DNA from: Pararhodobacter zhoushanensis
Lineage (GTDB): Bacteria; Pseudomonadota; Alphaproteobacteria; Rhodobacterales; Rhodobacteraceae
Length of the DNA stretch: 64,000 nucleotides
Assembly: GCF_003990445.1 (NCBI RefSeq)
Contig: NZ_REEZ01000017.1
Span: 1 to 64,000 of the forward strand
Direction of reading: 5' to 3'
Below the pieces are notes generated by a model. The model saw only the letters and a program-made list of their open reading frames with translations. It did not search any database and had not been told where the DNA came from. Positions within the stretch are counted from its first letter, which is position 1; each line of letters opens with the position of its first letter. Position numbers and translations under genes: made by a program. Shown piece after piece: positions 2,096 to 21,159 of the stretch.

Positions 2096-3265
2096 ATGCC
2101 CGTCATCACCACCATTGAGGATCTGCGCCAGATCTACCAGCGGCGGGCACCGCGGATGTTCTATGATTACTGCGAATCCGGCAGCTGGACCGAGCAGACC
2201 TTCCGCGAAAACACCAGCGATTTCGCCAAGATCCATCTGCGGCAGCGCGTGGCGGTGGATATGTCCAACCGCACGACCGAGACCGAGATGATCGGCGAAA
2301 AGGTGGCGATGCCGGTGGCGCTGGCGCCGGTGGGCCTGACCGGCATGCAGCACGCGGACGGGGAAATTCTGGCGGCCAAGGCGGCGGAAAAATTCGGCGT
2401 GCCCTTCACGCTGTCGACGATGTCGATCTGCTCGATCGAGGATGTGGCCGAGCACACCACCAAGCCGTTCTGGTTTCAGCTTTATGTGATGAAGGACGAG
2501 GATTTCGTGCGCCGGATCCTGCAGCGGGCCAAGGACGCGGGCTGCTCGGCTCTGGTGCTGACGCTGGATCTGCAACTGCTGGGCCAGCGGCATAAGGATC
2601 TGAAAAACGGGCTGAGCGCGCCGCCCAAGCTGACGATCCCGACGATGATCAATCTGGCGACCAAGGTGCAATGGGGCCTTGGTATGCTGGGCACCAAGCG
2701 GCGGTTCTTTGGCAATATCGTCGGCCATGCGACGGGGGTGGGCGATCCGGCGTCGCTGGGGGCATGGACGGCCGAGCAGTTCGATTTGCAGCTGACCTGG
2801 GCCAAGATCGAGAAACTGCGCGACATGTGGGGCGGCAAGCTGATCCTGAAGGGGATCAACGACGCCGAAGACGCGATCATGGCGCAGAAGATCGGGGCCG
2901 AGGCGATCGTGGTGTCGAACCACGGCGGGCGGCAGCTGGACGGCGCGCATTCGTCGATCCGCATGCTGCCGTCGATTCTGGACGCGGTGGGGGATACCAC
3001 CGAGGTTCATCTGGACAGCGGGATCCGCTCGGGTCAGGACGTGCTCAAGGCGGTGGCGATGGGCGCGAAGTCGACGTTCATCGGGCGCTCGTTCGTCTAC
3101 GGGCTGGGCGCGATGGGGGAGGCGGGCGTGACCAAGGCGCTGGAGATCATCCATACCGAGCTGGACAAGACCATGGCGCTGTGCGGCGAGCGCGATGTGA
3201 AGGCGCTGGGCCGCCACAACCTGATCGTGCCGCAGGGGTTTGAAGACCCGACGGCGGTGATCTGA
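2096..3265 (+). CDS. lldD: FMN-dependent alpha-hydroxy acid dehydrogenase (L-lactate dehydrogenase type)
   Basis: A 389-residue TIM-barrel flavoprotein of the LldD/glycolate oxidase family. It oxidises L-lactate or a related 2-hydroxy acid and passes electrons to the respiratory chain. It is usually attached peripherally to the inner membrane. Visible hallmarks are the N-terminal [13 protein letters not shown], the FMN region [33 protein letters not shown] and the catalytic [10 protein letters not shown], with the active-site base H276. The C-terminal part has [15 protein letters not shown] and FIGRSFVYG for flavin phosphate binding. A strong GGAGG lies 8 bases before the ATG. It ends 4 bases from the convergent M20 gene. 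The exact 2-hydroxy acid cannot be read from the sequence. Confidence 0.93.
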
Positions 3266-3269
3266 GACC

Positions 3270-4670
3270 TCAGGCGGCGTCGGGCAGGACGGGCACATAG
3301 GGCCGTCCGCCGCGCCGCCGGGCCAGTTCGTCTTGTGCCTGTGCGATCGCGTCGGGCTGCTGGATCAGCGTCAGTGCGGTATGGGCCATGACGTTGGCGG
3401 CGCGGATCATCGCGCGGTGTGCGGCCGAGCTGCGGCCCTGGGCGACGGCCTGCCATGTGTGGCTGGGCGTGCCAACGGCCCAGGTCGCCAGCGCGGCCTC
3501 GACCACCGGGATCTGCCAGCTGACATCACCGACATCGGTCGAGCCGGTGCCCTGTTCAATCCGCCCGCTGAAGCAGCGCAAGCCGCTGTGCAGCGGCAGC
3601 CGCCCGTGGCCCTGCGGCAGCAGCGCGTCGGTTTCAGTCTGGGCGCGGCGGTCGGCGGCGGCGGTGTCGCCGAGGCTGTCGCGGATGGCTTGGGCAAAGG
3701 CGATCTCGTCGCGGGCAAAGTTGAGCGTTCCCAAGGCCAGCATCGCCTGATGCATGACAACGCAGAGTGCCGCATTGGGCAGCACATTGGCCGCGCCGCC
3801 CTCGCCGATGATCTCGACCTGCGTGCCGGTCATCAGCGCGGCCCCGCGCGCCACGTCATCGACGCGGGCGATCAGTGCGTGCAGGTCATCCAGTTCGGGC
3901 GCGCGGATCATGTAGAGGGATTCGGCGCGGGCCTGCACGACATTGGGCGCGCTGCCGCCCGCGTCGGTGGTGGCGTAATGCAGCCGGGCCTCTTGCGGCA
4001 TGTGCTCGCGCAGGTAGTTCGCGCCGACGTTCATCAATTCGACCGCATCCAGCGCCGAGCGGCCCAGATGCGGCGACATCGCCGCATGGGCGGCGCGTCC
4101 GGTGAAGCGGTAGCGGCGGTTGGCGACGGCCAGCGTGGCGCGGGCGCGCACGGCGTTATAGGTGCCGGGATGCCAGCCGATGCCGACCTGCGCGTCGTCA
4201 AAGGCCCCGGCGGCGACCATGCGCACCTTGCCCCAGCCGCCTTCCTCCGCTGGACATCCGTAGTATCGCACGCGCGCGGCGATGCCGGTGTCGCGCAGTC
4301 GGGCCGCCAGTGCCGAGGCGGCCAGCATCGAGGCCGCACCCAGCAGATTATGCCCGCAGCCGTGACCATTGCCGCCGTCCTCGACCGCGAGGGGGGTTGC
4401 CAGACCAGCCTGCTGGCTGAGGCCGGGCAGGGCGTCAAACTCGCCCAGAAAGGCGATCACCGGCCCGTCAGTTCCCCAGTCAGCGGTAAAGGCGGTGTCC
4501 AGCCCGGCGATGTTGCGGGTGATGGCAAAGCCCTGCGCCGCCAAGGCGTCGATCTGGGCGGCGACCGAGCGGTGCTCGGCGTAGCACAGCTCGGGCGTGG
4601 ACCAGATCGCGTCGGAAACCGCGGTGAAGGTCGGCGCGAGCCGCGTGACCTGGGAGGTGAGCGCCTGCAT
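3270..4670 (-). CDS. M20 family metallo-amidohydrolase (AbgB-like)
   Basis: A 466-residue zinc-type M20D hydrolase resembling the B subunit of p-aminobenzoyl-glutamate hydrolase and indole-acetyl-amino-acid hydrolases. It should cleave an amide bond between an acyl or aryl group and an amino acid. Metal-site features are GEFDALPG (D79), [10 protein letters not shown] (residues 102-111), the catalytic PAEEGGWG (E142-E143) and GWHPG (H167). The dimerisation domain sits between about residues 180 and 300. It is the last gene of the long minus-strand unit, and its ATG lies 2 bases after the CocE-type gene with AAGAGG in front. It probably performs a late hydrolytic step on an imported substrate. 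The substrate is unknown. Confidence 0.85.
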
Positions 4671-4672
4671 GG

Positions 4673-6577
4673 TCAGCCTCTTATGGGCAGGATAAGGCGC
4701 GAGGGATGCGCCGGGTCATGGTGGATGGCGTTGACGGCGATGCGGGTGTGGGTGTGACGGCCAATCGCCTCACCGGTGTTCGGGTTGGGGTCAAAGCGCG
4801 GGAAGGACGAGGACGACACCAGCACCCGCAGCCGGTGGCCGGGCTGGAAGGCGTTGGAAATCGGGTAGAGCGGGAAGCGGACGCGCACCACCTTGCCCGG
4901 TTCCATCATCGTCGGGCTGTCGAACCCGTCGCGGTAGCGGACGCGGAAGATGCTGTCGCACAGGTTCAGCCGATAACCGGTGGGCCATGTGTCGGACACC
5001 GGGTAGAGGTCTTGCAGCATGATGAAAATGTCGGTGTCGGGTGCGTCCGAGGACAGGAAAATCTCCACCTCGGGCACGCCGGTGACTTCGGTTTCCTGCT
5101 CGAACGGCGCGGTGGTGAAGACCAGCGCGTCGGGGCGGTCGGCCAGATCGCCGTAGGGCGGTTCGGCGAACATGCCGTCATGGGTGACTTGGTCCGCCGC
5201 CCCTTGCAGCACGATGCTCTGGCGCAGGGTGATCGGATCGCCGGTGCGCATCATGCGGGCGAAGGGTGGCAGGTTCTGCGTCATGGACGAGACGTTGCCC
5301 GCCACCGTCGGCATCGGGTGCGCGGGGTCATAGGTCAGGGTGCTGGGGGCCGAGGCCGGGGCCGTGTCACGGCTGAGCGTGGTATCGGGCTGCAGGAACC
5401 AGTCCTGCGGCTGGGTGCCGGTGGGGGGCCATTGCGTATCGGCGACCCATTTGGCGCCGTGCAGCAACTGCCCGGCGGCGTTCTTGCCGCCATCGCCGCC
5501 CATGCGGACATAACGCACCTTGGGCTGGTCGACCCAGGCGGTTTCATCCCCCTTCAAGAAGCGGTCAAAGAAGCGCAGCATCATCTGTTTGCGGTCACGC
5601 TCAAGGTTGCCCTTGATCGTCGCACCGGGGCCCATATCGACCTGACCGGTCAGGCGGTTGTCGAAATTCGGCCCGCCATGCACGCCCGCGCCCATCATGA
5701 GGTACTGGTGGCTGGCGCGGGCATCCATGGCGAGGAAATTCTCGATCGAGGCGCGGGCGTAGCTGTCGTACCAAGCGCCTGCGTAGACGGTGGGAATGTC
5801 GGCCGAGCGGTCGCGGTAGGGCGCGAAATTGCGGCTGGGGTTGCGCCAGAACGGGCCATCGTCGCCGTTGCGATACATATCCAGCGCCCATTTTTCCCAT
5901 TTGGGCAGGGGGGCGAGGGGCGAGTTGCCCTCGGACCACGGCAGGCGGCAGAACCAGTCGTACATCTGTTCGGCATTGCGGACCATGGCGGTCTGGATCG
6001 CGGGGTCGGCGTGGGCTTCCTGCGCATGGATGCCGTTGGTGACGGCCCAGCCGAACCAGCGCATCTCGAACGCGCCATTGTGGCGGATGGCCGAGGTCAA
6101 CCCGTTCGAGCCGCCTTGGTTCACCCACATTGCTTTCAGATGCGGCGGGCGCAGCAGGGCGGTGGCGTTCTGGTTCCATGCCCTGAGCGACGAGCCCTGC
6201 GTACCGATGTTGCCGTCGCAATAGGGGCGCTCGGCCAGCCATTCGATGACGTCATAGCCATCCTCGCCGTCCTGATCGAGCAGGATGAAATCGCCCTCAG
6301 ACTCGTAGCGGCCCCGGGCGTCCTGCACGAGATACAGATAGCCGCGCTTGGCAAAATACTCGCCGTTGCCCGCCTGACCGGACGGGCCCTTGCCCGAGCG
6401 CGTGTCATAGGGCGAGCGGGTGACGACTGCCGGGAAGGGGCCGGGCAGCGGTTCGCCATCCTTGGCGGGGCGGTAGATGTCGACCGACAGCAGCACGCCG
6501 TCGCGGGCTCTCACCTTGACCGACCGCGAGATCACAACGTCATGGACCGGGTCGCTGATCATGGGGGTGTCTTTCAT
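4673..6577 (-). CDS. CocE/NonD family alpha/beta hydrolase
   Basis: A 634-residue hydrolase of the cocaine esterase / Xaa-Pro dipeptidyl-peptidase type. The N-terminal alpha/beta domain has VKVRARDGVLLSVDIYRP and DARGRYESEG. The probable nucleophile is S130 in TQGSSLRAWNQ. The other triad members are likely D271 (GAWYDSY) and H300 (GAGVHGG). The C-terminal jelly-roll domain has EVEIFLSSDAPDTDIFIML and PGHRLRVLVSSSSFPRFDPNPNTG. No signal peptide is visible, so it should act in the cytoplasm on imported esters or amides. It starts at an ATGA overlap with the acyl-CoA ligase gene, which indicates translational coupling. The last G of the usual GxSxxG is replaced by A. Family members include esterases, acylases and peptidases, so the substrate is open. 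Confidence 0.88.
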   Translation of the reverse strand: MKDTPMISDPVHDVVISRSVKVRARDGVLLSVDIYRPAKDGEPLPGPFPAVVTRSPYDTRSGKGPSGQAGNGEYFAKRGYLYLVQDARGRYESEGDFILLDQDGEDGYDVIEWLAERPYCDGNIGTQGSSLRAWNQNATALLRPPHLKAMWVNQGGSNGLTSAIRHNGAFEMRWFGWAVTNGIHAQEAHADPAIQTAMVRNAEQMYDWFCRLPWSEGNSPLAPLPKWEKWALDMYRNGDDGPFWRNPSRNFAPYRDRSADIPTVYAGAWYDSYARASIENFLAMDARASHQYLMMGAGVHGGPNFDNRLTGQVDMGPGATIKGNLERDRKQMMLRFFDRFLKGDETAWVDQPKVRYVRMGGDGGKNAAGQLLHGAKWVADTQWPPTGTQPQDWFLQPDTTLSRDTAPASAPSTLTYDPAHPMPTVAGNVSSMTQNLPPFARMMRTGDPITLRQSIVLQGAADQVTHDGMFAEPPYGDLADRPDALVFTTAPFEQETEVTGVPEVEIFLSSDAPDTDIFIMLQDLYPVSDTWPTGYRLNLCDSIFRVRYRDGFDSPTMMEPGKVVRVRFPLYPISNAFQPGHRLRVLVSSSSFPRFDPNPNTGEAIGRHTHTRIAVNAIHHDPAHPSRLILPIRG

Positions 6578-8241
6578 TGGGGAACCTCGGGGGCTTGGGC
6601 GGCGTCGAGTTCTTGCTGACGCAGGACGCGGCGCTGGATCTTGCCGACGGCGTTTTTCGGCAGGTCCGAGACAAATTCGATGCGGCGGGGGTATTTGTAG
6701 GGGGCGGTGGCGGATTTGACGAAATCCTGCAGCGCGCGGGCCAGATCGGGGCTGCCGTTGTGGCCGTCATGCAGGACAACGAAGGCTTTGACCACCTCGC
6801 CCCGCTCAGGGTCGGGGCTGGGCACGGCAGCGGCTTCGCGCACGGCGGGGTGCGAGATGAGGGCGTTTTCCACCTCTTGCGGGCCGATCCGGTAGCCCGC
6901 CGAGTTGATCACATCATCGCCGCGCCCCTCATAGTAGAGGTAGCCGTCTGCATCGGCGCGGGCGTTGTCCGAAGTCAGGAAGTAGGTCACGCCGTCAAGG
7001 GTTTGCAGCGTCTTTGCGGTGCGTTCGGGGTCTTGCCAGTAGCCCAGCATCATATGCGCGCTGGGCAGGCGCAGGGCGATCTGGCCGGTCTCTCCGGGGG
7101 CGGCGAAGGTGCCTTCGGCGGTGATCAGGTCCAGCGCGATCCCCGGCAGCGGACGGCCCATGGACCCGGCGCGGATGTCCGTGTCGCGGTAATTGGCGAC
7201 CAGCATCAGGGTCTCGGTCAGCCCGTAGGCTTCCAGCACCGGGCGGCCGGTCATCGCGGTCCAGGCGTCCATCACCGGCGGGTTGAGGCTTTCACCGGCG
7301 GAAACCGTCAGGCGCAGGGCGGGCAGCGGGTGCTGGGAGAGGTCGAGCGCGACGAGGCGGCGCAGTTCGGTCGCGGCGGCGCAATAGACGGTGACGCCAT
7401 GGCGCGTGAGCAGATCGAGACGGTAGGCCGGATCGAAGGGGCCGTCGAAAAACAGCACGGTCGCGCCCCGGCTCCACGGGCCGAACAGAATAGCGGTGCC
7501 AGCCTTGGACCAGCCGGTGTCGGCGGTGCAAAACATCACGTCGGTCGGGCCAAGGTCGAGCCAATGCTCAGCCGAGCCGCGCCATGCGTGCAGGGCGCGG
7601 GCGGAATGGGTGACACCTTTGGGCAGCCCGGTGGAGCCTGAGGTGTAGAAGATCAACGCCGGGTCTTCGGCGGCGACGGTGGCGGCAAGGAAGGTGCCGG
7701 GGTCTTCGGTCAGCATCGGCTCCAGCGCTTCCCAGCCTTCAGGCGCGGGGGCGCGGGTGCCGGGCACATCGGGCGGCAGCGCGGGGTCGGTGGCGATGCA
7801 GAGCGTGCCGGGGGCGGTGGCGGCGAATTTGCCGATCTCGGCCTGCGTGGTGATCACCGCCCGCGCGCCCGAGTTTTCCAGCCGGTAGGCGATGTCCTTC
7901 TCGGTCAGCATGGTCACGCAGGGAATGGCAATCGCGCCGAGTTTGAGCGCGGCGACCATGGCGATCTGCCACGCGGGCACGCGGGGCAGCATGATCAGCA
8001 CCCGGTCGCCCTGCTGCACCCCGCGCCGCTTGAGCGCGGCGGCGAGGCGGTCGCTGAGATCAGCGATCTGAGCAAAGCTGTAGGACCGCTCGACCCCCGC
8101 CGCGTTGCACCAGATCAGCGCGGGCGCGGCGGCGTTGCGGGCCGTGTCGGCGGCGAAGGCGTCAACAACATCGGTGCCGAAGTTGAAGGTCGGCGGTGTG
8201 CGCGGGTCATAGCCCGCGCGCAGGGTTTCGTAGCGGTCCAT
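6574..8241 (-). CDS. AMP-dependent acyl-CoA synthetase/ligase
   Basis: A 555-residue adenylate-forming enzyme that activates a carboxylic acid with ATP and CoA. The P-loop-like YTSGSTGLPKG is at residues 199-209. AYGLTETL, the hinge region YYEGRGDDVINSAGYRIGP and the C-terminal catalytic lysine region LPKNAVGKIQRR follow. It is closest to medium-chain and aryl acyl-CoA synthetases. I place the start at ATG 8241 because GGGAGGAG stands 5 bases before it; an in-frame ATG at 8262 lacks such a site. It follows the alpha/beta hydrolase gene by 20 bases and overlaps the CocE-type gene by 4 bases. In this operon it would activate the acid freed by one of the hydrolases. Confidence 0.9.
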   Translation of the reverse strand: MDRYETLRAGYDPRTPPTFNFGTDVVDAFAADTARNAAAPALIWCNAAGVERSYSFAQIADLSDRLAAALKRRGVQQGDRVLIMLPRVPAWQIAMVAALKLGAIAIPCVTMLTEKDIAYRLENSGARAVITTQAEIGKFAATAPGTLCIATDPALPPDVPGTRAPAPEGWEALEPMLTEDPGTFLAATVAAEDPALIFYTSGSTGLPKGVTHSARALHAWRGSAEHWLDLGPTDVMFCTADTGWSKAGTAILFGPWSRGATVLFFDGPFDPAYRLDLLTRHGVTVYCAAATELRRLVALDLSQHPLPALRLTVSAGESLNPPVMDAWTAMTGRPVLEAYGLTETLMLVANYRDTDIRAGSMGRPLPGIALDLITAEGTFAAPGETGQIALRLPSAHMMLGYWQDPERTAKTLQTLDGVTYFLTSDNARADADGYLYYEGRGDDVINSAGYRIGPQEVENALISHPAVREAAAVPSPDPERGEVVKAFVVLHDGHNGSPDLARALQDFVKSATAPYKYPRRIEFVSDLPKNAVGKIQRRVLRQQELDAAQAPEVPQ

Positions 8242-8261
8242 AAGGCTCCTCCCGACCGCCA

Positions 8262-9116
8262 TCAAACGCGCGGCAAGGCGGCAAGGAAGTCGCGGGTTTT
8301 CTGCGCCAGAACATCGGGTTGATCGCCCCAGATGGTGTGGTTTGAGTCCGAGATCACCTCAAGCCGGGCATTGGCGAAGGCGGCGGTCAGGTCAGAGGCC
8401 TGCGTGCCCGACAGCACGTTAGAGCGGTCGGCGTTCAGGATCAGGACCGGGGCCGTGATCGCGGCGACATCGGCGCTCTGGTCGGTGGACAGGTTCAGGA
8501 ACACCTTGGTGATCGCGGGCAGATCATAGGCCCAGCTCCACTGGCCGTCGGGTTCTTGCCGGAAGTCGCCCTCCATCGCCATGTGGTGCATAGCCTCGCT
8601 CAACCCTTTGCGCTGGGGCAGGGCCATGGCGTAGGCCTCGGCCTCGGCCCGGGTGGCATAGGTACGCTTGCGGGTGTGGTGCGAGCGCAGGTATTTGACG
8701 ATCTCGCTGTCGGAACAGAAAAAGCTGGGGTCCGACAGGATCAGCCCGGCAATGCGGTCGGGGTTGGCGGCGGCGAAGGACACGGCGACCTGATTGCCGA
8801 CCGACGAGCCGATCAGGGTGATGCCGGTCAGGTCCAGCTTTTCGGCCAGTTTGGTGATGTCGCTGGCCATTTCGGCGATGGCATAGGTGGTCGCGGGTCG
8901 GTCCGAGGCCCCATGGCCGCGCATATCGACGGCGATGACGCGGGCGGCGTCTTTCAGGCTGGCGCCCAGATGGCCCCAGGCATGGGCGGTCATCGAGGTG
9001 CCGTGCAGGCAGATCACCACCGGGCCGGTGCCGCCATTGTCCAGATAGCGGATCTTCACGCCGTCCAGATCGACGATCTTCGAGGTCCAGATGCGGGCGA
9101 GGGTTTCGGTCATCAT
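8262..9116 (-). CDS. Alpha/beta-fold hydrolase
   Basis: A 284-residue single-domain alpha/beta hydrolase. The oxyanion region is CLHGTSMTAHAWGHL, the strand after it reads VIAVDMRGHGASDRP, and the nucleophile elbow is GSSVG with S105. An aspartate in LILNADRSNVLSG and the histidine in SDSNHTIW complete a plausible triad. There is no signal peptide. Family members hydrolyse esters, lactones, enol-lactones or C-C bonds. The gene lies 21 bases after the ABC ATPase gene and 20 bases before the acyl-CoA ligase gene, so it belongs to the import-and-degradation unit. AGGA precedes the first of two adjacent ATGs. The specific reaction is unknown. Confidence 0.87.
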   Translation of the reverse strand: MMTETLARIWTSKIVDLDGVKIRYLDNGGTGPVVICLHGTSMTAHAWGHLGASLKDAARVIAVDMRGHGASDRPATTYAIAEMASDITKLAEKLDLTGITLIGSSVGNQVAVSFAAANPDRIAGLILSDPSFFCSDSEIVKYLRSHHTRKRTYATRAEAEAYAMALPQRKGLSEAMHHMAMEGDFRQEPDGQWSWAYDLPAITKVFLNLSTDQSADVAAITAPVLILNADRSNVLSGTQASDLTAAFANARLEVISDSNHTIWGDQPDVLAQKTRDFLAALPRV

Positions 9117-9137
9117 GTCGTTGTTTTCCTGTAGAAC

Positions 9138-10097
9138 TTAGGTGTCGCCATTGGCGATGCAGGCCGCAACCTCGCGCGAGGCGGACCCGGTCATGCGATG
9201 GGTCAGCGTGGCGCAGGGGGCTGTGGCCAGCGGGCAGCGGCTGCGAAAGCGGCAACCGCTGGGCGGGTTACGGGGGCTGGGGACGTCGCCGGTGAGCAGG
9301 GGCACGTCCTCGATCCTTGCGTCGGGATCGACCTTGAGGGACGAGGCGAGCAGGGCGCGGGTATAGGGGTGCTGCGGCGCCGTCAGCACATCGGCGGCGC
9401 TGCCCAGCTCCATGATGCGGCCCAGATACATCACCGCGACGCGGTCGGCGAACTGGCCGACAACGGTGAGGTCATGGCTGATGAACAGATAGGTCAGGCC
9501 GTAATCGCGTTGCAGATCGACCAGCAGGTTAAGGATCTGCGCCTGTACCGACACATCGAGGGCCGAGGTCGCCTCGTCCAGCACGATCAGTTCGGGCCGC
9601 ATGGCCAGCGCGCGGGCGATGGCGACGCGCTGCTGTTGGCCGCCCGACAGCTGGTGAGGGAATTTGTGGAAGGTGCTGGGCGGCAGCTCGACCTGCGCGA
9701 GCAGGGCGTGGACCTGTTTGTCCCGTTCGGCCCCGCGCGCGATGCCGTGAACGACCAGCCCCTCGGCGATCAGGCTGCCCACGGTCCAGCGCGGGTCGAG
9801 CGAGCCGAGCGGGTCCTGAAACACCACTTGCGCCTTGCGGGCCAGCGCCTTGCGGTCCTTGGCACCGTCGGCGTCGATGCTGCCACCGGCGATGGGTTCC
9901 AGCCGCAGGATGGCGCGGCCAAGGGTGGATTTACCGCAGCCGGATTCGCCGACCAGTGCGAGGGTTTCACCGCGTTTCAGTTCGAAACTGGCGTCCTCGA
10001 CCGCGCCGACATGGCCGGTGACACGCTGAAAGAACCCGCTGCGGATGGGGTAGCGGACCGAGACATTGCGCAGGGAAAACAGCGGGTCAGCGGACAT
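9138..10097 (-). CDS. Peptide-type ABC transporter ATP-binding protein (DppF/OppF-like)
   Basis: A 319-residue cytoplasmic ATPase of the oligopeptide/dipeptide importer family. Walker A is GESGCGKST (residues 50-58), the Q-loop is VVFQDP, the signature is LSGGQQQR (150-157) and Walker B is IVLDEAT (171-177). SHDLTVV is the switch region. The C-terminal [11 protein letters not shown] cysteine motif is typical of DppD/DppF-type ATPases. Its start overlaps the end of the preceding ATPase gene by 11 bases. It should pair with that ATPase to drive import through the two permeases encoded upstream. Confidence 0.93.
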
Positions 10098-11112
10098 GGG
10101 CGGTCATTTCCTCGGCTTTGAGGCAGCGCAGGAGGCGGCCATAGGACGCGGTTTGGAACGCCGGTTCGGTCTGCGCACAGCCCGCGTCGGCGAGTGGGCA
10201 GCGGGGGTGGAAGCGGCAACCGGTGGGCATCGCGGCGGCGGAGGGGACGGAACCCGGCAGCGCCTCGATCCGCGCGCCCGGAAGGCCGGTGGGGATGCTG
10301 GAGAGCAGCGCGCGGGTGTAGGGGTGGCGCGGGTCGCGGATGATCTGCGCGACGGGGCCGCTTTCGACCACCTGGCCTGCGTACATCACCGCCACATCAT
10401 CGGCCATTGCGGCGACGACGCCGAAATCATGCGTCACCAGCACCAGCGCCAGATTAAGCTCGCGCTGCAAGCGGCGGATCAGGGTCAGCACCTGCGCCTG
10501 AATGGTCACATCCAGCGCGGTGGTGGGTTCATCCGCGATCAGCAACTCAGGCTCCGAGGCCAGCGCGATGGCGATCATCGCGCGCTGGCGCTGGCCGCCC
10601 GACAGCTGGTGCGGGTAACGGTCGAGGGCTTCTTCGGGGTCGGGCAGGCCGACATGGCGCAGCCATTCGGTGCCCTTGGCGCGCAGGGCCTCGCGGCTCG
10701 TCAGCCCGGTCAGCGAGAGGGATTCGTTCAGCTGCTGGCCGATGGTATGCACCGGGTCCAGCGCGCGGGACGGGTTCTGGAAGATCATGCCGATCTTGCG
10801 ACCCATGAGGCCCCGGCGGCGGCGTTCCTTTTCGGAAAGGCGCGAAATCTCCGCGCCCTCCAGGGTTACGGTGCCCCGGTCAATGGCTCCGCCTGCGCCC
10901 AAGAGGCCGGTGATCGCCAGCACCGTCACCGATTTGCCCGAGCCCGACTCGCCGATCAGCGCCAGCGCGCGGCCCCGCTGGACCGAGAGCGAGATGTCCG
11001 AGCAGACCTCAAGCGCGCCATAGCGCACGGCCATGCCGTCAACGCTGAGGAGCGGGGCGTCGTCACCGGCCTGCGCGGCCGGTGAGAGGGTGTTGACCGG
11101 GGCGAGGCTCAT
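10087..11112 (-). CDS. Peptide-type ABC transporter ATP-binding protein (DppD/OppD-like)
   Basis: A 341-residue ATPase. Walker A is GESGSGKS (residues 54-61), [11 protein letters not shown] forms the Q-loop region, the signature is LSGGQRQR (170-177) and Walker B is LLIADEPT (190-197). The C-terminal domain carries [15 protein letters not shown], the cysteine-containing segment found in DppD-type proteins. An N-terminal tail of about 20 residues precedes the core. The ATG overlaps the stop of the solute-binding protein gene by 4 bases (ATGA), and the end overlaps the next ATPase gene. It is one of the two motor subunits of the operon's importer. Confidence 0.93.
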
Positions 11113-12719
11113 TCGCTGACCCAGACTTCGCGCAGGCTGGGGAAGCCCTGCGTCATCATCGGGTGCCAGCCATGCACGCGGGCATGCGCCGGATGCAGCA
11201 GCAATGAGGCCCAGCCGGGCAGGGTGGTCTGCACGTTCTCCGCGATATAGCGCTGGATGTCCCAGAGCATCGCCTGACGCGCCGCCGGATCGCCGATGGT
11301 GCGCTGCTCTTCGATCATCGCGGTCAGCTCGGGGTCATCGACACCGGCATAATTGCGGATCGCGCCGGGGATATAGTGGGTCGAGAGGTACTCGTCCGCC
11401 TCGGCGAACGGGCTCATGACCATGTAGAGCGCCTCGAAATTGCCTTCACGTCCCAGCGCCATGCCCGCTGCGCGGTCAACGATGTTGATCTCGGCGGTGA
11501 TGCCGATATCGGCCAGATCCTGCTGGATCCATTCGCCCTCGCGCACCATTTCCTCGCCGTAGTTCAGCAAGGTGAACTGAAAGGTGAAACCGTCCGGGTA
11601 GCCCGCCTCGGCCAGCAATTCGCGGGCGCGTTCCGGGTTGGGGGTGCCATAGAGCGCGATACGCTCATCGTCGGGCAGGGTCTGGGTGGACAGCGCCGGG
11701 CCGACCACGCCGCCGACAGCGCCGCCGCCGCGGATCACCTCACCCATCGCCATGCGGTCGATGGCCATGTTGATCGCTTGCCGCACGCGGATGTCCGAGA
11801 AAGGCTCGAACGCCGGGTTCAGGTACATCTCGGTCTGCGTGTTCGAAATGGTCTGAATGTCTTGCAGGCCGGGCACCTGCGCCTGAATCTGCGCCATTTG
11901 CGTCAGGTTCAGCGGGCCGAACCAGATGTCGATCTGACCCGAGCGGAAGGCGATGATGCGCGCGTTCAGATCGCGGATCGGGGTGATTTCGACCGCATCG
12001 AGATAGGGCAGCTGGTTGCCCGCCGCGTCATGGCCGAAATAGGTGGGGTTGCGCACATAGGTGGTGGCCACGCCCGCCTCATCGCCGGTCAGGATGAACG
12101 GGCCGGTGCCGATCACGGTGGTGTTGCGGTCATAGCCGCCGTCGAAGGCCTCGGTCGGAAGAATCCACATGTTCTGATGCGCAAGGTTCTGCAGCAGGAC
12201 CACGTTGGGCGACGACAGGGTCAGCACGACGGTGTAATCGTCGGGCGCGGTGATCGTATCGACCGCCGACAACAACCCGCCCTGCACACCGCCCGCGCGC
12301 ATCGCTTCATAGGTCGCGACTACATCTGCCGAGGTGAAGCCACGGCCTGAGACCGGGGCGACATCCTGCCAGACGACGTCATGGCGCAGATGGAAGGTGT
12401 AGGTCAGCCCGTCGTCCGAGATTTCCCAGCTTTCGGCCAGAGACGGCGTGGGCACGAACTCGCCATACGCGATATCGGGGCCGGTGCCCCACGCGACCAG
12501 CTGGCTCAGCGCCAGACCCAGCCGCGAATGCACGGCAAATTCGGTGCTGGCGAGCGGGTCGAAATTGGGCGCATCGGCGTGCACGTTGATGCGCACTAGA
12601 CCGCCGTATTGCGGGGTCTCCTGAGCGGTGGCGGCCAGCGGCAGGGCCAGAAGCGCCCCCGCCAACAGGCTGCGCGCAAAGCGCGCGGCGCGGGTGGGAG
12701 GGGTGAAATGTCGGGTCAT
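11109..12719 (-). CDS. Peptide-type ABC transporter substrate-binding protein (SBP_bac_5)
   Basis: A 536-residue periplasmic solute-binding protein of the DppA/OppA class. A Sec signal peptide covers about residues 1-32, with likely cleavage after LPLAATA. The mature start QETPQYGGLVRINVHADAPNFDPL matches the conserved first strand of this fold. WEISDDGLTYTFHLRHDVVWQD, GTGPFIL and ARELLAEAGYPDGF are further family landmarks. AGGAG lies in front of the ATG, and a 42-base gap separates it from the permease gene, so it may be translated more strongly than its neighbours. It determines importer specificity. Members bind peptides, but also opines, nickel or glycosides, so the ligand is unknown. 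Confidence 0.93.
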   Translation of the reverse strand: MTRHFTPPTRAARFARSLLAGALLALPLAATAQETPQYGGLVRINVHADAPNFDPLASTEFAVHSRLGLALSQLVAWGTGPDIAYGEFVPTPSLAESWEISDDGLTYTFHLRHDVVWQDVAPVSGRGFTSADVVATYEAMRAGGVQGGLLSAVDTITAPDDYTVVLTLSSPNVVLLQNLAHQNMWILPTEAFDGGYDRNTTVIGTGPFILTGDEAGVATTYVRNPTYFGHDAAGNQLPYLDAVEITPIRDLNARIIAFRSGQIDIWFGPLNLTQMAQIQAQVPGLQDIQTISNTQTEMYLNPAFEPFSDIRVRQAINMAIDRMAMGEVIRGGGAVGGVVGPALSTQTLPDDERIALYGTPNPERARELLAEAGYPDGFTFQFTLLNYGEEMVREGEWIQQDLADIGITAEINIVDRAAGMALGREGNFEALYMVMSPFAEADEYLSTHYIPGAIRNYAGVDDPELTAMIEEQRTIGDPAARQAMLWDIQRYIAENVQTTLPGWASLLLHPAHARVHGWHPMMTQGFPSLREVWVSE

Positions 12720-12761
12720 ATCGGGGCTCCTGTTGGGGGAATTATGATTATGGGTAGTGGG

Positions 12762-13637
12762 TTAGCGGCGGCGCGGGTCGAGCACATCGCGCAGCGCGTC
12801 GCCGATCAGGTTCAGCGCCAGCACGCTGATCGTCAGCATCAGGCCGGGAAACACGATCAGCCACGAGGCAATGCCGATGAACCGCGTGCCCTGCGCCAGC
12901 ATGGTGCCCAGCGACGGGTTCGGCGGCGGGGTGCCGACACCCAGAAAGCTGAGCGCGGCCTCGGTCATGATGGCGATGCCGAAGGACAGCGAGCCCATGA
13001 CCAGCATCGTCGGGATCAGGTTGGGCACGCCATGGGTCAGCATGATGCGCAGGCTTGATGCGCCGATTACCCGCGAGGCGGCGATGAAATCCTGCGCGCG
13101 GACCTTGATCATCTCCGAGCGCACCACCCGCACAAAGCGCGGGATCTGCGCCAGCGTCACGGCAATAACCACGTTGCGCACGCTGGGCCCGAGCATGGCG
13201 GCGATGAACAGCGACAGCACCAGCGAGGGCAGGGTATCAAGCGCCTCGACAATCCGCTGGATGATCATGTCGGTCCAGCCGCCGAAATAACCTGAGATCA
13301 GCCCGATCATGCCGCCGATGATCATGGTGAAGGTGACCACCAGCAGGCCGACCAGCAGCGAGATGCGCGTGCCATAAAGCACCCGCGAAAACACATCGCG
13401 CCCGATGTCATCGGTGCCGAACCAATGCGCCAGCGAGGGGGCCTTGAGCACCGCGCGGCGGTCCTGAAACAGCGGGTCGTACTGGGTGATCAGCGGGGCC
13501 AGCAGGGCCAGCAACAGCACCGTGGTAAGGATCACCAGCGCCGTGCAGCCGATCGGCTCGCGCAGCAACGCGCGCAGGATGCCGAGGAAACGGTTGGGGC
13601 GGCGCTCGACCACGTCGGGCGAGGGGGCGAGGGTCAC
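12762..13637 (-). CDS. Peptide-type ABC transporter permease (DppC-like)
   Basis: A 291-residue inner-membrane permease. An N-terminal helix is followed by the DppC-type segment HWFGTDDIGRDVFSRVLYGTRISLLVGL and then about five more helices. The cytoplasmic EAA loop is EAALSFLGVG within AIMTEAALSFLGVGTPPPNPSLG. It forms the channel together with the upstream DppB-like protein. The start codon is GTG and overlaps the stop of the upstream permease gene in a GTGA arrangement, so translation is coupled. The length is normal for the family. Confidence 0.93.
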   Translation of the reverse strand: MTLAPSPDVVERRPNRFLGILRALLREPIGCTALVILTTVLLLALLAPLITQYDPLFQDRRAVLKAPSLAHWFGTDDIGRDVFSRVLYGTRISLLVGLLVVTFTMIIGGMIGLISGYFGGWTDMIIQRIVEALDTLPSLVLSLFIAAMLGPSVRNVVIAVTLAQIPRFVRVVRSEMIKVRAQDFIAASRVIGASSLRIMLTHGVPNLIPTMLVMGSLSFGIAIMTEAALSFLGVGTPPPNPSLGTMLAQGTRFIGIASWLIVFPGLMLTISVLALNLIGDALRDVLDPRRR

Positions 13638-14587
13638 GAGCGGGCCTCCCGGATGCGGGGATCGACGGCGCCGTAAGACAGATCGACCAGCAGGTTCACG
13701 ACGATGGTGATGAAGCCATAGGTCAGCACAGCGGCCTGGATGGTGGGGTAATCGCGGTTATCGACGGACTCGAACAGCAGGTTGCCAAGGCCGGGGATGT
13801 TGAAGATCCGCTCGATGATCACGGTGCCCGACAGCAGGTTGCCAAATTGCGTGCCAAGCAGGGTGATCACCGGGATCAGCGCGTTCTTGAGCCCGTGGCG
13901 CACATAGATGCCCCCCGGCGTCACGCCGCGCGCGCGGGCGGCGCGGATGAAATCGGCGCCTGTCACCTCAAGCATCGCCGAACGCGTGAGGCGCGACAGC
14001 GCCGCCGCGACGCCCAGCGACAGGGCGAGTGCGGGGAAGATCACCTGCTGCACATTCGCCCAAGGTTCGGTGGTAAAGGGGCGATAGGGCAGTGGGATGT
14101 AATAGCCGATGGCGGCCAGACCCGAGAGGGTGAGCAGCCCCAGCCACAGCTGCGGCACGGCCAGAAACACCGTCGAGGCCATACGCAGCGCCACATCGCC
14201 CGGCGTGCCGATCCACAGCGAGGCGGCGACACCGGCGCCGATGCCCAGCACCGAGCCAAAGGCGATGGCGAGGATCGACAGTTGCAACGTCGGTACGATG
14301 GCGGTGCGGATCTGGTCGGACACCGGCCGCCCGGTCCACAGCGAATTGCCCAGATCGCCGTGCAGCACCCCCGCCGCCCAATGCGCGAACTGGGTGAGCA
14401 CCGGCTGATCCAGCCCCATCTCGGCGCGTTTCTGCGCCAGCAGTTCAGGCGTGACCGCGCCGGCCTCGGACAGCTGCTGGTTGACGATGTCACCGGGGAC
14501 AAAGCGGATGGCAACGAAGAGCATGACCGACACAGCCATCAGCACGATGACGCCAAGAACCGCGCGGCGAAGGGCGAAGGTGAGCAT
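13634..14587 (-). CDS. Peptide-type ABC transporter permease (DppB-like)
   Basis: A 317-residue inner-membrane permease with six expected helices. The first reads LGVIVLMAVSVMLFVAIRFVPGD, and the family motif LGLDQPVLTQFAHWAAG appears here as MGLDQPVLTQFAHW. The EAA-type loop lies around ARARGVTPGGIYVRHGLKNALIP, and the protein ends NLLVDLSYGAVDPRIREARS, as DppB proteins do. It begins 3 bases after the rhodanese stop codon and overlaps the DppC-like gene by 4 bases. Together with that gene it makes the translocation pore. Confidence 0.93.
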   Translation of the reverse strand: MLTFALRRAVLGVIVLMAVSVMLFVAIRFVPGDIVNQQLSEAGAVTPELLAQKRAEMGLDQPVLTQFAHWAAGVLHGDLGNSLWTGRPVSDQIRTAIVPTLQLSILAIAFGSVLGIGAGVAASLWIGTPGDVALRMASTVFLAVPQLWLGLLTLSGLAAIGYYIPLPYRPFTTEPWANVQQVIFPALALSLGVAAALSRLTRSAMLEVTGADFIRAARARGVTPGGIYVRHGLKNALIPVITLLGTQFGNLLSGTVIIERIFNIPGLGNLLFESVDNRDYPTIQAAVLTYGFITIVVNLLVDLSYGAVDPRIREARS

Positions 14588-14590
14588 GGC

Positions 14591-15010
14591 TCAGCGCGTC
14601 CGCTGCCAGCGCGCGGTGGCGGCGGCGTCTTCAACGGGCAGATCGGCTTTGGTCCAGCCCGCAAACCCCTCGTCCAGATGCCAGACCTTGGTATAGCCCA
14701 TTTCCATCAGTGCCAGCGCGGCCAGCACCGAGCGGCCACCCCCGGCGCAATAGACGACGTATTCGGCGTCCTCGGTGAAGAACTCGCGGTGATAGCCCAT
14801 GGCGGGGTCGGCCCAGAATTCCAGCATGCCGCGCGGGACGTGATGCGAGTCCGGGATCGCGCCCTTGTCCAGCCGCTCCTGCAGCTCGCGCAGGTCGATG
14901 ACGGTCAGTGCTTCGCCCTGATCGCGGCGCGCCTGCAGCCCGGCGGCGTCCAGCGTCGGAACCCGGTCGCGCAGACTGTCGACCCAGCCCATGGTGTTGC
15001 GGATGGTCAT
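14591..15010 (-). CDS. Single-domain rhodanese-like protein
   Basis: A 139-residue cytoplasmic rhodanese domain. The active-site loop is YCAGGGRS with the sulfur-carrying C88. LTVIDLRELQERLDKGAIPDSHHVPRG is the conserved N-terminal part, and HLDEGFAGWTKADLPVE is the usual C-terminal helix region. Such proteins transfer sulfane sulfur or serve as redox or regulatory modules. It overlaps the GntR regulator gene by 4 bases (ATGA) and sits 3 bases before the first permease gene, so it is firmly part of this operon. That raises the possibility that the pathway substrate contains sulfur, but this is only an inference. Confidence 0.9.
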   Translation of the reverse strand: MTIRNTMGWVDSLRDRVPTLDAAGLQARRDQGEALTVIDLRELQERLDKGAIPDSHHVPRGMLEFWADPAMGYHREFFTEDAEYVVYCAGGGRSVLAALALMEMGYTKVWHLDEGFAGWTKADLPVEDAAATARWQRTR

Positions 15011-15744
15011 AGCAGCGGTTCCTTTTTGGCGGTGTCGGTGAGCGAGGCGTTGACGCCGCGCAGGTCGGCGGCAGGCGTCAAGGCCGTGTGCAACGCCGAG
15101 ACAGGGGCGTAATCGCGCGCCTTGTTGACCTTCTCTTCCCAGGTGCTCAGATGGCAGCGCATCGCTTCCTCGGCCGCCAGCGCATCGCCGCGCGTCAGCG
15201 GCTCGAAGACCGCGACATGCTCCTCATACGAGCGCTGGGCGTCATGCGGCGTCTGGTGGCGCATGGTGAACAGCGTGGTCAGCACGGTCATGTCACGCAG
15301 ATTGGCGGCGAGCACCGAATTGCCCAGACTGTTGGCCAGACAGACGTGGAAATCACCCAGCAGATAGCTGCGGCGGGGGATGTCGTCGCCCGCGACGGCC
15401 TCGGCCTGCGCGTCCAGATGGCGGGCGATCTGATCGAGCGCGGCTGTCGGCAGCGCCTGCTTGCGGCGGGCGAGGTGGCGTAGCAGCCCGGTCTCGATGA
15501 TCTCGCGCGCTACGTAAAGCTCGCGGGCCTTTTCGGTGTCGACCTCGGTCAGATACCAGCCGCGGCGCGGGCTGACCGTGGCGATCCCGCGCGCCGCCAG
15601 ATCGACCAGCGCTTCGCGCACGATGGTGCGGCTGCAGCCGAACAGTGCCGCCAGATCCTGCTCGCCCAGCCGCGTGTTGGGGGCAAGACGTTGTGACAGG
15701 ATGGCGTCAATCACCTGCGAACTGATGGTGTTGGCATTGGCCAA
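15007..15744 (-). CDS. GntR family transcriptional regulator, FCD (FadR-type) subgroup
   Basis: A 245-residue regulator. The N-terminal winged helix spans about residues 8-66 (LGEQDLAALFGCSRTIVREALVDLAARGIATVSPRRG). A C-terminal all-helical FCD ligand domain carries the metal-site-like histidines of GDFHVCLA, EEHVAVFEPL and MRCHLSTWEE. I choose the TTG at 15744, which has GGAG 7 bases upstream. A longer reading frame from 15795 would translate the operator repeats. It is the first gene of the 11-gene unit and overlaps the rhodanese gene by 4 bases. The natural model is autoregulation, with the repressor leaving the DNA when it binds the imported substrate or a breakdown product. Confidence 0.9.
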   Translation of the reverse strand: MANANTISSQVIDAILSQRLAPNTRLGEQDLAALFGCSRTIVREALVDLAARGIATVSPRRGWYLTEVDTEKARELYVAREIIETGLLRHLARRKQALPTAALDQIARHLDAQAEAVAGDDIPRRSYLLGDFHVCLANSLGNSVLAANLRDMTVLTTLFTMRHQTPHDAQRSYEEHVAVFEPLTRGDALAAEEAMRCHLSTWEEKVNKARDYAPVSALHTALTPAADLRGVNASLTDTAKKEPLL

Positions 15745-15756
15745 AGGCGGGCTCCA

Positions 15757-15798
15757 ATCTTGTATGCAAGATCTGCATGCAAGATATGAATGCAAGAT
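15757..15798 (-). promoter_or_regulatory. Predicted GntR operator: three TGCAAGAT direct repeats and a near-palindrome
   Basis: TGCAAGAT occurs at 15765-15772, 15778-15785 and 15791-15798, exactly 13 bases apart. The first copy is also the right half of ATCTTGTATGCAAGAT (15757-15772), an inverted repeat with one mismatch per half-site pair. The block lies 13 bases upstream of the TTG start of the GntR regulator gene. It therefore overlaps where the promoter, transcript start and leader should be. FCD regulators commonly bind short TTG/CAA palindromes. A TTGAAA at about 15805-15810, read on the minus strand, could be the -35 box. Binding by this regulator is inferred. Confidence 0.65.
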
Positions 15799-15841: not shown

Positions 15842-16021
15842 AGGAAATTGGCAACATAAGAAGAGCTTACGTGACGGTTTGGTGAAATTTTCATCACCTG
15901 CACGACGTGCTAGCTGCGGCAGACAGGCCGACTCGGCAACCGATGCCGCTTCATCTTGCCAAAAATACGCACAGAACCGGGTCAGCCAGACCCCGCGTCG
16001 GGCAAGGCGCAAATGGGGATT

Positions 16022-16984: not shown

Positions 16985-18046
16985 TTAGCGCGCGGCGAGG
17001 TAGCGGCCAACAAAGGCGTTGGCATAGCCGACGGCACCGGACTGATAGGCCTCGTAGCTTTCCAGCACGCGGGCGGCATCGGGGCTGGCAGCGCGCTGTT
17101 CTTCAACGACTTCGCCCCAGGCCGATTTCATCCCGGCGATGACGTCATCGGGGAAGTTCAGGAACTCGACGCCCGCCTCTTCCAGCGAGGCCATCGCGCC
17201 GACGTTGTAATAGTCGAACTGACCCAGCGTCTCCATCGAGCATTGCAGCGCCGCCGCTTCCACGATCGCTTTCAGATCGTCGCTCAGACCGGCCCAGGCT
17301 TCGGTGTTCACCACGACCTGCAGCGCCGCGCAGGGCTCGGCATAGGCGGGGGTGTAGCACAGGTTGGTGATGCGCTGCAGGCCGAAGGCCTGATCGAGCA
17401 GCGGGCCGACCCATTCGGCGGCGTCGATGGCGCCCGATTGCAGCGACTGGAAGATCTCGGTCGGCGGCATCAGGATGGCGTTAACGCCCAGTTTGCGCAT
17501 CATCTCGCCGCCCAGACCGGCGATGCGCATGTTCAGCCCTTGCAGGTCAGCCAGCGATTCGATGCGGTTCTTGAACCAGCCACCCGCCTGCGTGCCCGAG
17601 TTGCCCGAGTAGAAGGGTTTCAGGTTCCGCTCGGCATAGATGCTGTCCCAGATTTCCTGACCGCCGCCCCATTTCAGCCAGGCGTAATGCTCGTTCGCCG
17701 TAAGGCCGAAGGGCACGCCTGTGAACCAGTGGGCCGCAGCGGTTTTCGACGCGGCGTAATAGGGCGTGCCGTGGCCGATTTGCACGTTGCCCGCCTGCAC
17801 GGCATCTTCGACCGCGAAGGGCGGCACCAGCTCGCCCGCGCCGTAGACGGTGATGACCATCCGGCCCGAGGAGAGTTTCTCGACCAGTTCGGCAAAGCGG
17901 GTCGAGTTGGTGCCGACGCCGGGTGCCGCTTTGGGGAAGCTGGACGGCATGTCCCATTCGATACGCTCTTGCGCGATGGCAGGGGCGGCGAGGGTGGTGG
18001 CAGCGGCAAGGCCCGCGCCGCTTTTCAGGAAAAGTCTGCGTTTCAT
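16985..18046 (-). CDS. TRAP transporter substrate-binding protein (DctP family, TakP-like)
   Basis: A 353-residue periplasmic binding protein. The N-terminus MKRRLFLKSGAGLAAATTLA is a twin-arginine-type signal, with likely cleavage after PAIA near residue 25. The mature part has WDMPSSFPKAAPGVGTN, GELVPPFAVEDAVQAG, NTGVQ-like GNSGTQAGGWF, LNMRIAGLGGEMMRKLG and IDAAEWVGP. This set is shared with the alpha-keto acid binding protein TakP of Rhodobacter sphaeroides. A small 2-oxo or hydroxy acid is a reasonable ligand guess. AGGAGG precedes the ATG, and the gene follows the large permease gene by 11 bases. Confidence 0.92.
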   Translation of the reverse strand: MKRRLFLKSGAGLAAATTLAAPAIAQERIEWDMPSSFPKAAPGVGTNSTRFAELVEKLSSGRMVITVYGAGELVPPFAVEDAVQAGNVQIGHGTPYYAASKTAAAHWFTGVPFGLTANEHYAWLKWGGGQEIWDSIYAERNLKPFYSGNSGTQAGGWFKNRIESLADLQGLNMRIAGLGGEMMRKLGVNAILMPPTEIFQSLQSGAIDAAEWVGPLLDQAFGLQRITNLCYTPAYAEPCAALQVVVNTEAWAGLSDDLKAIVEAAALQCSMETLGQFDYYNVGAMASLEEAGVEFLNFPDDVIAGMKSAWGEVVEEQRAASPDAARVLESYEAYQSGAVGYANAFVGRYLAAR

Positions 18047-18057
18047 GGGTGGTCCTC

Positions 18058-19599
18058 CTAGTTAAACATCAGGGTGGGCAGCCAGGTGGCGATCTGGGGG
18101 AAGAAAAACACCAGCGCCAGCGCCAGGATCTGGATCAGTACAAATGGCACCACGCCGCGATAGATGTCTATCGTCGTGATGCCCGGCGGCGCGACGGATC
18201 GGAAATAGAACAGCGCAAAGCCGAAGGGCGGGGTCAGGAAGCTGGTCTGCAGGTTCATGGCCATCATCACCGCGAACCAGACCGGCGAGATGTCACCGGC
18301 CAGCACGGCAGGGCCAAGCAGCGGCACGACGATGTAGATGATTTCCACGGCCTCAAGGATAAAGCCAAGGAAGAACACGATCACCATCACCGCCAGCATC
18401 GCGCCCATTTCGCCGCCGGGGAATTCGCGCATCAGGTGCTCGACCGCGCGTTCGCCGCCGAAGCCGCGAAACACCAGCGACAGCATCGAGGCGGCGATGA
18501 CGATGCCGAAGACCATGCCGGATATCTTGATCGTCTCAACCATCGCGCCGTGGACAAGCCGTCCGGCCATCAGCCGCCAGAGCGCGACGACGACACCCAG
18601 CGCAATGAGCAGGGCGGCGGCGACGCCGGCCATCCCGGCGAGCGTGTTCAGGTCGGCGCGGCCAAAGCCTGCGACCTTGAGCGCGACGAGGGCAAAGGCG
18701 GACAGACCCGCGATGGCAATCAGCGCGCGTTCCCAGGTGTGTTTGCTGATCGCGAAGGCGGCCATCAGGCCCGCGCCGACAGCGCCCAGACCGGCGGCCT
18801 CGGTCGCGGTGGCGATACCACCCAGAATTGAGCCGAGCACGGCGAGGATCAGCAGGACGGGGGGCAGGAAGGTATAGAGGATCTCGCTGCCCGAGACGGG
18901 TTCATTGACGCCAACCCGCTTGGTGCGGCCGGGCCGCAGGGTGATCAGCAGCCACAGGGCGTAGAGACCGACGAGCAGCAGGCCCGGAAGCATGGAGCCT
19001 GCGAAAAGATCGGCAACCGAGACGGGCTGCGGGGCGAAGTTTCCGGCGCGCTGTTGCGCCTCAAGATAGGTGTTGCCGATCTGGTCGCCCAAGAGGACCA
19101 GCAGGATCGACGGCGGAATGATCTGCCCCAAGGTACCCGAGGCGCAGATCAGCCCGGCGGCCTGCCGTTTGGGCACACCCGATTCCAGCATCGGCGTCAG
19201 CGCGATCAGCACCAGCATGACGATGGTGGCGCCGATGATCCCGGTCGACGCGGCGATGATGGTTGAGAACGCCAGCACCGACAGCGCCATGCCCAGTGGC
19301 GAGCCGCCCAGCAGTCGGGCGAGGACGCGCAGCATGTTCTCGGCCAGATTGGCGCGTTCCAGAAACACACCCATCAGCACGAAAAGCGGCACGGCCATGA
19401 GTAGGGTGTTCGACATAACCCCCTGAACGCGCGAGGGATAATTGGACAGGAAGGCGAGGTTGAACAGGTCGAACTGCCCCGCGATCACCGCCAGCACGAA
19501 TGGCACCCCGGCGATGGCCAGCATGGCGGGAATGCCCGACAGGATGCCACCAAACAGCGCGACAAACAGAACGATCAGCATCCATTCCTGACCGCTCAT
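18058..19599 (-). CDS. TRAP transporter large permease (DctM family)
   Basis: A 513-residue inner-membrane protein with about 13 hydrophobic segments, the ion-coupled transport subunit of a TRAP importer. Family landmarks are VPLFVLMGVFLERANLAENML, STGIIGATIVMLVLIALPML-like ASTGIIGATIVML, GTLGQIIPPSILLVLLGDQIG and the C-terminal MNLQTSFLTPPFGFALFYFRSVAPP. It is longer than typical DctM proteins (about 430 residues) because of extra hydrophobic segments around residues 235-345. That matches the larger class found beside TakP-type receptors. The start overlaps the DctQ gene by 4 bases. Confidence 0.93.
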   Translation of the reverse strand: MSGQEWMLIVLFVALFGGILSGIPAMLAIAGVPFVLAVIAGQFDLFNLAFLSNYPSRVQGVMSNTLLMAVPLFVLMGVFLERANLAENMLRVLARLLGGSPLGMALSVLAFSTIIAASTGIIGATIVMLVLIALTPMLESGVPKRQAAGLICASGTLGQIIPPSILLVLLGDQIGNTYLEAQQRAGNFAPQPVSVADLFAGSMLPGLLLVGLYALWLLITLRPGRTKRVGVNEPVSGSEILYTFLPPVLLILAVLGSILGGIATATEAAGLGAVGAGLMAAFAISKHTWERALIAIAGLSAFALVALKVAGFGRADLNTLAGMAGVAAALLIALGVVVALWRLMAGRLVHGAMVETIKISGMVFGIVIAASMLSLVFRGFGGERAVEHLMREFPGGEMGAMLAVMVIVFFLGFILEAVEIIYIVVPLLGPAVLAGDISPVWFAVMMAMNLQTSFLTPPFGFALFYFRSVAPPGITTIDIYRGVVPFVLIQILALALVFFFPQIATWLPTLMFN

Positions 19600-21102: not shown

Positions 21103-21137
21103 GGGTGCCTCCTGTACAGAACCCTTGACGTGACGCT

Positions 21138-21159
21138 GACAATTTGTCAACGATTTGTC
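21138..21159. promoter_or_regulatory. Repeats in the divergent MarR/oxoprolinase promoter region
   Basis: GACAATTTGTC (21138-21148) is an 11-base inverted repeat. Its right arm ATTTGTC recurs 11 bases later at 21153-21159, about one helical turn away. A TTGACA box lies on the minus strand at 21145-21150, and TTGACG lies on the plus strand at 21125-21130. The region is a candidate operator for the adjacent MarR-like regulator, placed over both divergent promoters. Confidence 0.5.

Follow-up and report, generated by a model that had tools for sequence, protein, structure and literature searches.

Several described systems resemble parts of the locus considered here. Malonate is used in rhizobia through the mat operon, and the abg operon of Escherichia coli, which deals with p-aminobenzoyl-glutamate, comprises two M20 subunits and the AbgT carrier. 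According to one paper, ACAD10/11 as well as LvaA and LvaC of the lva operon turn a 4-hydroxyacyl-coenzyme A (4-hydroxyacyl-CoA) into a conventional acyl-CoA intermediate via a phosphate (PMC12440821). The present analysis concerns an operon of eleven minus-strand genes between positions 3270 and 15798 of a 64,000-nucleotide stretch from Pararhodobacter zhoushanensis (contig NZ_REEZ01000017.1, positions 1 to 64,000), the whole of which is called the window below. It is well supported that these genes form a dedicated uptake-hydrolysis-activation unit: several hydrolases and a CoA ligase stand behind one operator and are kept as a unit across families, which bears out a preliminary description of this DNA as one GntR-controlled unit for import and degradation. 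On balance, this self-contained and substrate-induced operon probably takes up an acyl compound with ester and amide linkages, hydrolyses it, whereby malonate is set free, and activates it with CoA. The preliminary description knew of no pathway with exactly this set, and none was found in open-access full texts, a source that takes in few papers from subscription journals.

The eleven open reading frames were assigned with Pfam and NCBIfam to the families named earlier, and at the same place. Together with the operator they are, in gene order:

15757..15796, minus strand: operator, three CTTGCAT repeats with 13-base spacing, the last repeat within the palindrome ATCTTGCATACAAGAT
15007..15744, minus strand: GntR/FCD regulator (Pfam GntR 7.3e-15, FCD 5.6e-18)
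14591..15010, minus strand: single-domain rhodanese (Pfam Rhodanese 1.3e-16), active-site loop CAGGGRS
13634..14587, minus strand: DppB-like permease (BPD_transp_1 5.2e-36)
12762..13637, minus strand: DppC-like permease (BPD_transp_1 2.4e-30, OppC_N)
11109..12719, minus strand: family 5 solute-binding protein (SBP_bac_5 1.9e-73)
10087..11112, minus strand: DppD-like ATPase (ABC_tran, oligo_HPY)
9138..10097, minus strand: DppF-like ATPase (ABC_tran, oligo_HPY)
8262..9116, minus strand: alpha/beta hydrolase of esterase or lactonase type (Abhydrolase_1 9.2e-25), nucleophile motif GSSVG
6574..8265, minus strand: AMP-forming acyl-CoA ligase near 3etc and ACSM2A (AMP-binding 3e-76)
4673..6577, minus strand: CocE/NonD-family serine hydrolase (Peptidase_S15 4.7e-48, PepX_C 3.1e-47)
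3270..4670, minus strand: M20 amidohydrolase, HmrA/PM20D2-like (Peptidase_M20; TIGR01891)

Junctions between successive genes, in the same order, are -4, +3, -4, +42, -4, -11, +21, -4, -4 and +2 bases. Six of them are overlaps (4 bases in five cases and 11 in the sixth, counted with the ligase start at TTG 8265) and four are gaps of 2-42 bases, in agreement with the gaps of at most 42 bases and the prevailing overlaps of 4-11 bases reported before.

The check proposed in the preliminary description, a search for the same gene order elsewhere, had a positive outcome in ten other genomes or records, from Devosia and Aminobacter through to a Ponticoccus plasmid, and chance is excluded because of this recurrence. 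The loci were sought with alpha/beta-hydrolase peptide patterns in one genome for each of 84,980 species, a scan that detects close relatives only. It gave ten loci, nine of which carry the operon; the tenth (Spirosoma, L018, 33%), which is without it, and an Embleya match (32%) were dropped from the locus set. Two loci were added, on a Ponticoccus alexandrii plasmid and in a third genome of the Devosia genus (G728). The eleven loci counted below are the window and ten others, and per-gene identity to the window across those ten ranges from 57% (GntR) to 86% (DppC). A further locus (L009), on a contig titled Novosphingobium sp. MW5, was left out of the identity, tree and operator counts. Its operon and flanks match the window mostly at 92-99% (one gene at 85%), with several frames broken, and this DNA is apparently of the same kind as the window, either mislabelled or a contaminant.

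The upper limit of the operon, placed at 15798 in the preliminary description, had to be revised. No start codon begins at base 15798 and the TTG at 15795 falls inside the operator. Comparison of homologues places the GntR start at TTG 15744, which is the better choice because the operator fills the upstream part of the earlier reading frame and an equivalent start codon lies just past the operator in the eleven loci compared. Directly ahead of the GntR start, a CTTGCAT repeat stands 13 bases before CTTGCATACAAG in 6 of the 11 loci (with three repeats in the window), and variants occur at the same promoter in three Devosia, a metagenome-assembled genome (MAG) and Ponticoccus. The operon genomes, with the exception of that of L009 and the Ponticoccus plasmid, were searched with a 25-base pattern derived from the loci, allowing at most 2 mismatches. 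The two-site operator was found at one place per genome, the operon promoter, in 10/10 operon genomes, and the backward control gave 0. Positives were bound to occur, because the loci themselves supplied the pattern, and the informative result is that there is no other place: a second two-site operator, as expected of a wider regulon, was found in none of the 10 genomes (single palindromes were searched for in the window). The GntR/FCD regulator therefore seems to be dedicated to this operon.

All five components of a Dpp-type, family 5 ATP-binding cassette (ABC) importer are present, i.e., the binding protein, two permeases and two oligo_HPY ATPases. By sequence, the best solved relative of the binding protein is AgaA (6hlx). 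The binding protein and both ATPases, the three proteins scanned, fall below the cut-off of every NCBIfam model listed and so give no indication of the substrate. A predicted structure of the binding protein was too poor to be used (predicted local distance difference test, pLDDT, 46).

Among the enzymes, the alpha/beta hydrolase was inspected at its nucleophile and His, and both the serine motif and the His motif SNHTIWGDQ are identical in 11/11 loci. The CocE protein scores 331 bits against a cut-off of 66 for TIGR00976, which places it in the CocE/NonD family. Its Ser, Asp, His and Tyr positions align with 1ju3 and are identical in 11/11 loci, and its solved relatives, distant in sequence and with the best match in two pieces, include alpha-amino-acid ester hydrolases. 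In the M20 protein the His and Glu of the motifs GHGCGH, EEGG, WHPG and SH, aligned to 3ram, are likewise kept in all eleven loci. The residues inspected are presumably catalytic in the two serine hydrolases and metal-binding in the M20 enzyme, as in their families. The earlier label of AbgB-like M20 was right as to the amidohydrolase (TIGR01891, 230 bits vs cut-off 154) and less so as to AbgB: the protein is closest to 3ram (HmrA) and human PM20D2 by sequence and fold (model pLDDT 64), and less like the aminobenzoyl-glutamate utilization protein 3io1, which served as comparator in place of E. coli AbgB itself. PM20D2 is a beta-alanyl-lysine dipeptidase. The ligase is nearest to 3etc (1.5e-101) and ACSM2A (2vze, 2.5e-100), a group that accepts medium, branched and aryl acids. 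Its motifs are conserved, with small changes in the MAG and Ponticoccus, and it reaches 432 bits with the model of MbcS methylbutyryl-CoA synthetase (NF047394), below the cut-off of 850.

Flanks and further stretches were compared all against all. In Pseudaminobacter and Aminobacter, genes for MatA (malonyl-CoA decarboxylase, Pfam MCD), MatB (synthetase; NF005702, 851 bits vs 558, Devosia copy) and a PatB-type C-S lyase follow directly after the M20 gene on the same strand. Two Devosia have all three upstream of the operon; the third has only PatB there, its MatA being located on another contig next to MatB and a Dpp-type importer. MatA and MatB adjoin the operon in these first four loci and PatB relatives, in two forms 34% alike, in all five (5/11). 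Within the Devosia genus, MatA (E 1e-60) is present in 3/3 operon genomes, at an unlinked site in one of them, and in 0/58 others; ortholog-level PatB has the same distribution (3/3 and 0/58, one operon-less genome having a 35% match). MatA is present in 9/10 operon genomes overall, and GntR-MatA-MatB sets were seen. Between Pseudaminobacter and Devosia, identity is 60% for MatB; because it is as low as 48% for MatA and 34% for PatB, as against 63-83% for the core genes, the link of MatA and PatB with the operon probably arose at least twice, as judged from these identities. Malonate release is supported by these two apparently separate recruitments and by the Devosia pattern, for which the background rate comes from Devosia only. 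As a separate observation, another contig of the window genome (L051:9984-14286) has MatA and MatB followed by an M20 peptidase, a second malonate-M20 neighbourhood; this M20 was rejected as a relative of that of the operon, since it belongs to another branch (PRK07079; BLASTP E 0.05).

In three Devosia and Pseudaminobacter (4/11 loci) the operon has a TetR-SDR-ACAD-APH cassette no more than a few kb away; in Aminobacter and the MAG the cassette is located elsewhere in the genome, and in the MAG no TetR was noticed with it. Its identities between Pseudaminobacter and Devosia (ACAD 82%, SDR 70%, APH 67%, TetR 65%) match those of the core genes, and for this reason the cassette probably travelled with the operon. 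ACAD11 is the second-best solved relative of both the ACAD and the APH of Pseudaminobacter. In Devosia, APH (E 1e-40) occurs in 3/3 operon genomes vs 0/15 without the operon. The link is not a general one, because APH at >=60% occurs outside Devosia in 3/7 operon genomes (one being the source of the query) vs 4/18 without. Propionyl-CoA carboxylase, methylmalonyl-CoA mutase and thiolase beside the Pseudaminobacter operon were seen in one genome only and were not used.

The rhodanese was taken in the preliminary description as a hint of sulfur in the substrate. Its loop CAGGGRS is identical in 9/9 copies. However, the gene is missing in Corticibacterium and Oryzicola (2/11 loci), where a spacer of ~140 bases joins GntR to DppB and the genomes have only distant rhodaneses elsewhere (42-43%). 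The rhodanese alone was therefore rejected as strong evidence. The hint is weak by itself, and the PatB relatives beside five loci keep it alive: the substrate may contain sulfur, an idea weaker than that of malonate. A gene for a Blh-like persulfide dioxygenase (MBL), located close to the operon in two Devosia and Aminobacter, was treated as background, because it occurs in 45/61 Devosia-genus genomes with or without the operon, which made it a negative control. In two Devosia SulP adjoins this gene.

From these components the following pathway may be proposed. The GntR/FCD protein would occupy its own operator, ahead of its start codon, and would most likely be released once the substrate or one of its degradation products binds to it. 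The compound taken up by the family 5 binding protein and the DppBCDF-type importer would be small and would contain an ester or lactone bond and an amide bond, at least one of each. Its ester or lactone bonds would then be opened by the alpha/beta hydrolase and the CocE-type hydrolase, the amide would be cut by the M20 enzyme, and the freed medium-size, branched or aryl acid would be converted by the ACSM-like ligase into its CoA ester. In several hosts this acyl-CoA probably enters beta-oxidation by an ACAD11/LvaAC-like kinase-dehydrogenase route for 4-hydroxy acids. Malonate is probably one product, processed by MatB and MatA. A second product, a thioether of cysteine type, may be split by PatB, in which case the rhodanese would handle sulfane sulfur.

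Several observations weigh against this proposal. In the window genome, MatA (48%), PatB (62%) and a distant APH (46%) are encoded only away from the operon, and only 3.3 kb beyond the M20 gene can be seen because the contig starts at window base 1. The flanks of the operon in Corticibacterium, Aquamicrobium, Oryzicola, Ponticoccus and the MAG (G683) showed none of the accessory genes, over ~3.5 kb upstream and <1 kb downstream in Corticibacterium and over 3-5 kb in the MAG, which also has no MatA match. In Oryzicola MatA lies ~20 kb from the operon with unrelated sugar genes between, and this was not counted as linkage. The PatB model (TIGR04350, cut-off 340 bits) is exceeded by the Pseudaminobacter copy (405) and missed by the Devosia copy (282). 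Moreover, the three Devosia form one clade and their 3/3 are not three independent events, so that the Devosia counts overstate independence. Finally, the stretch that separates M20 from MatA in Pseudaminobacter and Aminobacter (L014 and L016, about 15875-15945) contains a GACA(C)...(G)TGTC inverted repeat. This repeat may mean separate control of MatA, possibly by another operator.

The neighbouring MatAB, PatB, ACAD and APH genes could also be hitch-hikers on one mobile island of a Pseudaminobacter-Aminobacter-Devosia clade and be uninformative on the substrate. This possibility, which we consider less likely than not, concerns the neighbours only and is compatible with the core of the pathway proposed above. 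It is in keeping with the operon tree, in which Pseudaminobacter, Aminobacter and three Devosia form one clade (support 98), and with the generic presence of the Blh-like MBL in Devosia. However, MatA and PatB diverge far more than the core genes between the halves of the clade, and the MatA of the third Devosia is unlinked. The same two genes bear on a rather unlikely alternative, the scavenging of peptides or N-acyl amino acids (hippurate-, indole-3-acetic acid-amino acid- or p-aminobenzoyl-glutamate-like), in which the acid freed from the amino acid by the M20 enzyme is activated by the ligase, side-chain esters are the targets of the two serine hydrolases, and the malonate and PatB genes are unrelated neighbours. 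A Dpp-type importer, an M20 of the TIGR01891 subfamily and a ligase near ACSM2A would suit such a pathway, as would the 6/11 loci where no accessory gene was seen alongside, some with short flanks. On the other hand, two serine hydrolases of different families with active-site residues kept in 11/11 loci exceed what it needs, and the separate recruitment of MatA and PatB and their co-occurrence in Devosia oppose chance neighbours.

Serine hydrolases are common in drug inactivation, and the CocE protein counts alpha-amino-acid ester hydrolases among its solved relatives. The operon could accordingly be thought to detoxify an acylated natural antibiotic, attacked by the CocE relative and the M20 enzyme, with the ligase salvaging the side chain. 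This is highly improbable: the complete importer, the CoA ligase and the nearby acyl-CoA genes in four genomes point to use as food, and no efflux or target-protection gene is among the eleven. A more specific form of the malonate-releasing pathway may be considered as well. N-malonylated cysteine S-conjugates are the form in which plants, and perhaps algae, store glutathione-detoxified lipids and xenobiotics. In a route for these compounds, M20 would remove the malonyl group, PatB would split the thioether, a lactone or ester would be opened by the hydrolases, and activation and oxidation of the resulting (4-hydroxy) acid would follow. We regard it as improbable; a search of the open-access part of the literature found no such bacterial route, and the passages of PMC11449216 examined do not mention malonyl.

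The operon is rare. None of 384 other sampled genomes of the class exceeds a 33% match to the alpha/beta hydrolase (E 1e-25), and the CocE match in 294 other genomes of the window's family is at most 41% (E 1e-50). The operon was found in 5/297 genomes of the family of Pseudaminobacter and in 3/61 of the Devosia genus. This patchy spread, together with the plasmid copy, suggests horizontal transfer. The CocE proteins fall into two groups, the window copy being 79-84% identical to those of Ponticoccus, Corticibacterium, Oryzicola and Aquamicrobium and 69-73% to the others. The split is absent from the identities of the other operon genes and could perhaps be caused by gene replacement. On the Ponticoccus plasmid (L028:88-3086), a second binding protein and a second M20 related to those of the operon lie beyond repABC; homogentisate genes downstream of the operon there, a single record, were set aside. 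In the window, the next gene downstream encodes a flavin mononucleotide (FMN)-dependent dehydrogenase (2096-3265, plus strand), convergent with M20. Upstream are an endonuclease/phosphatase-family gene and a TRAP (DctPMQ) transporter at 16985-20087 (minus strand), and a fused 5-oxoprolinase/hydantoinase A-B protein at 20818-24777 (plus strand).

The unit is compact and well bounded, comprises a single regulator, a single operator, a single importer and four enzymes, and occurs in soil and marine bacteria including several isolated strains. It therefore offers a practical way to a natural or man-made carbon source that has so far gone unrecognised, and the links with malonate and C-S lyase narrow the chemistry to screen.

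Compared with the systems named at the outset, the operon has an M20 amidohydrolase in common with abg. However, the combination of AbgA, AbgB and AbgT was not found among the eleven genes, which include one M20 and no AbgT-type carrier, and an ABC importer, a ligase and two serine hydrolases are present instead. Unlike in the mat operon, MatA and MatB are accessory here and outside the eleven genes. To our knowledge, the lva operon has no such ABC importer or hydrolase set. The cassette is no part of the eleven-gene set, and the window genome showed none next to the operon. In the genomes that bear it, the cassette would provide, for 4-hydroxyacyl-CoA, the logic of an acyl-CoA ligase, an LvaA-like kinase and an LvaC-like dehydrogenase, as in the levulinic acid pathway of Pseudomonas putida (PMC12440821). 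With the Dpp/Opp/Gsi importers the operon shares the family 5 binding protein, the two permeases and the two oligo_HPY ATPases. The domain make-up and triad residues of cocaine esterase CocE and the alpha-amino-acid ester hydrolases are also found in its CocE-type protein, which is distant from them in sequence and lies within a full uptake operon.

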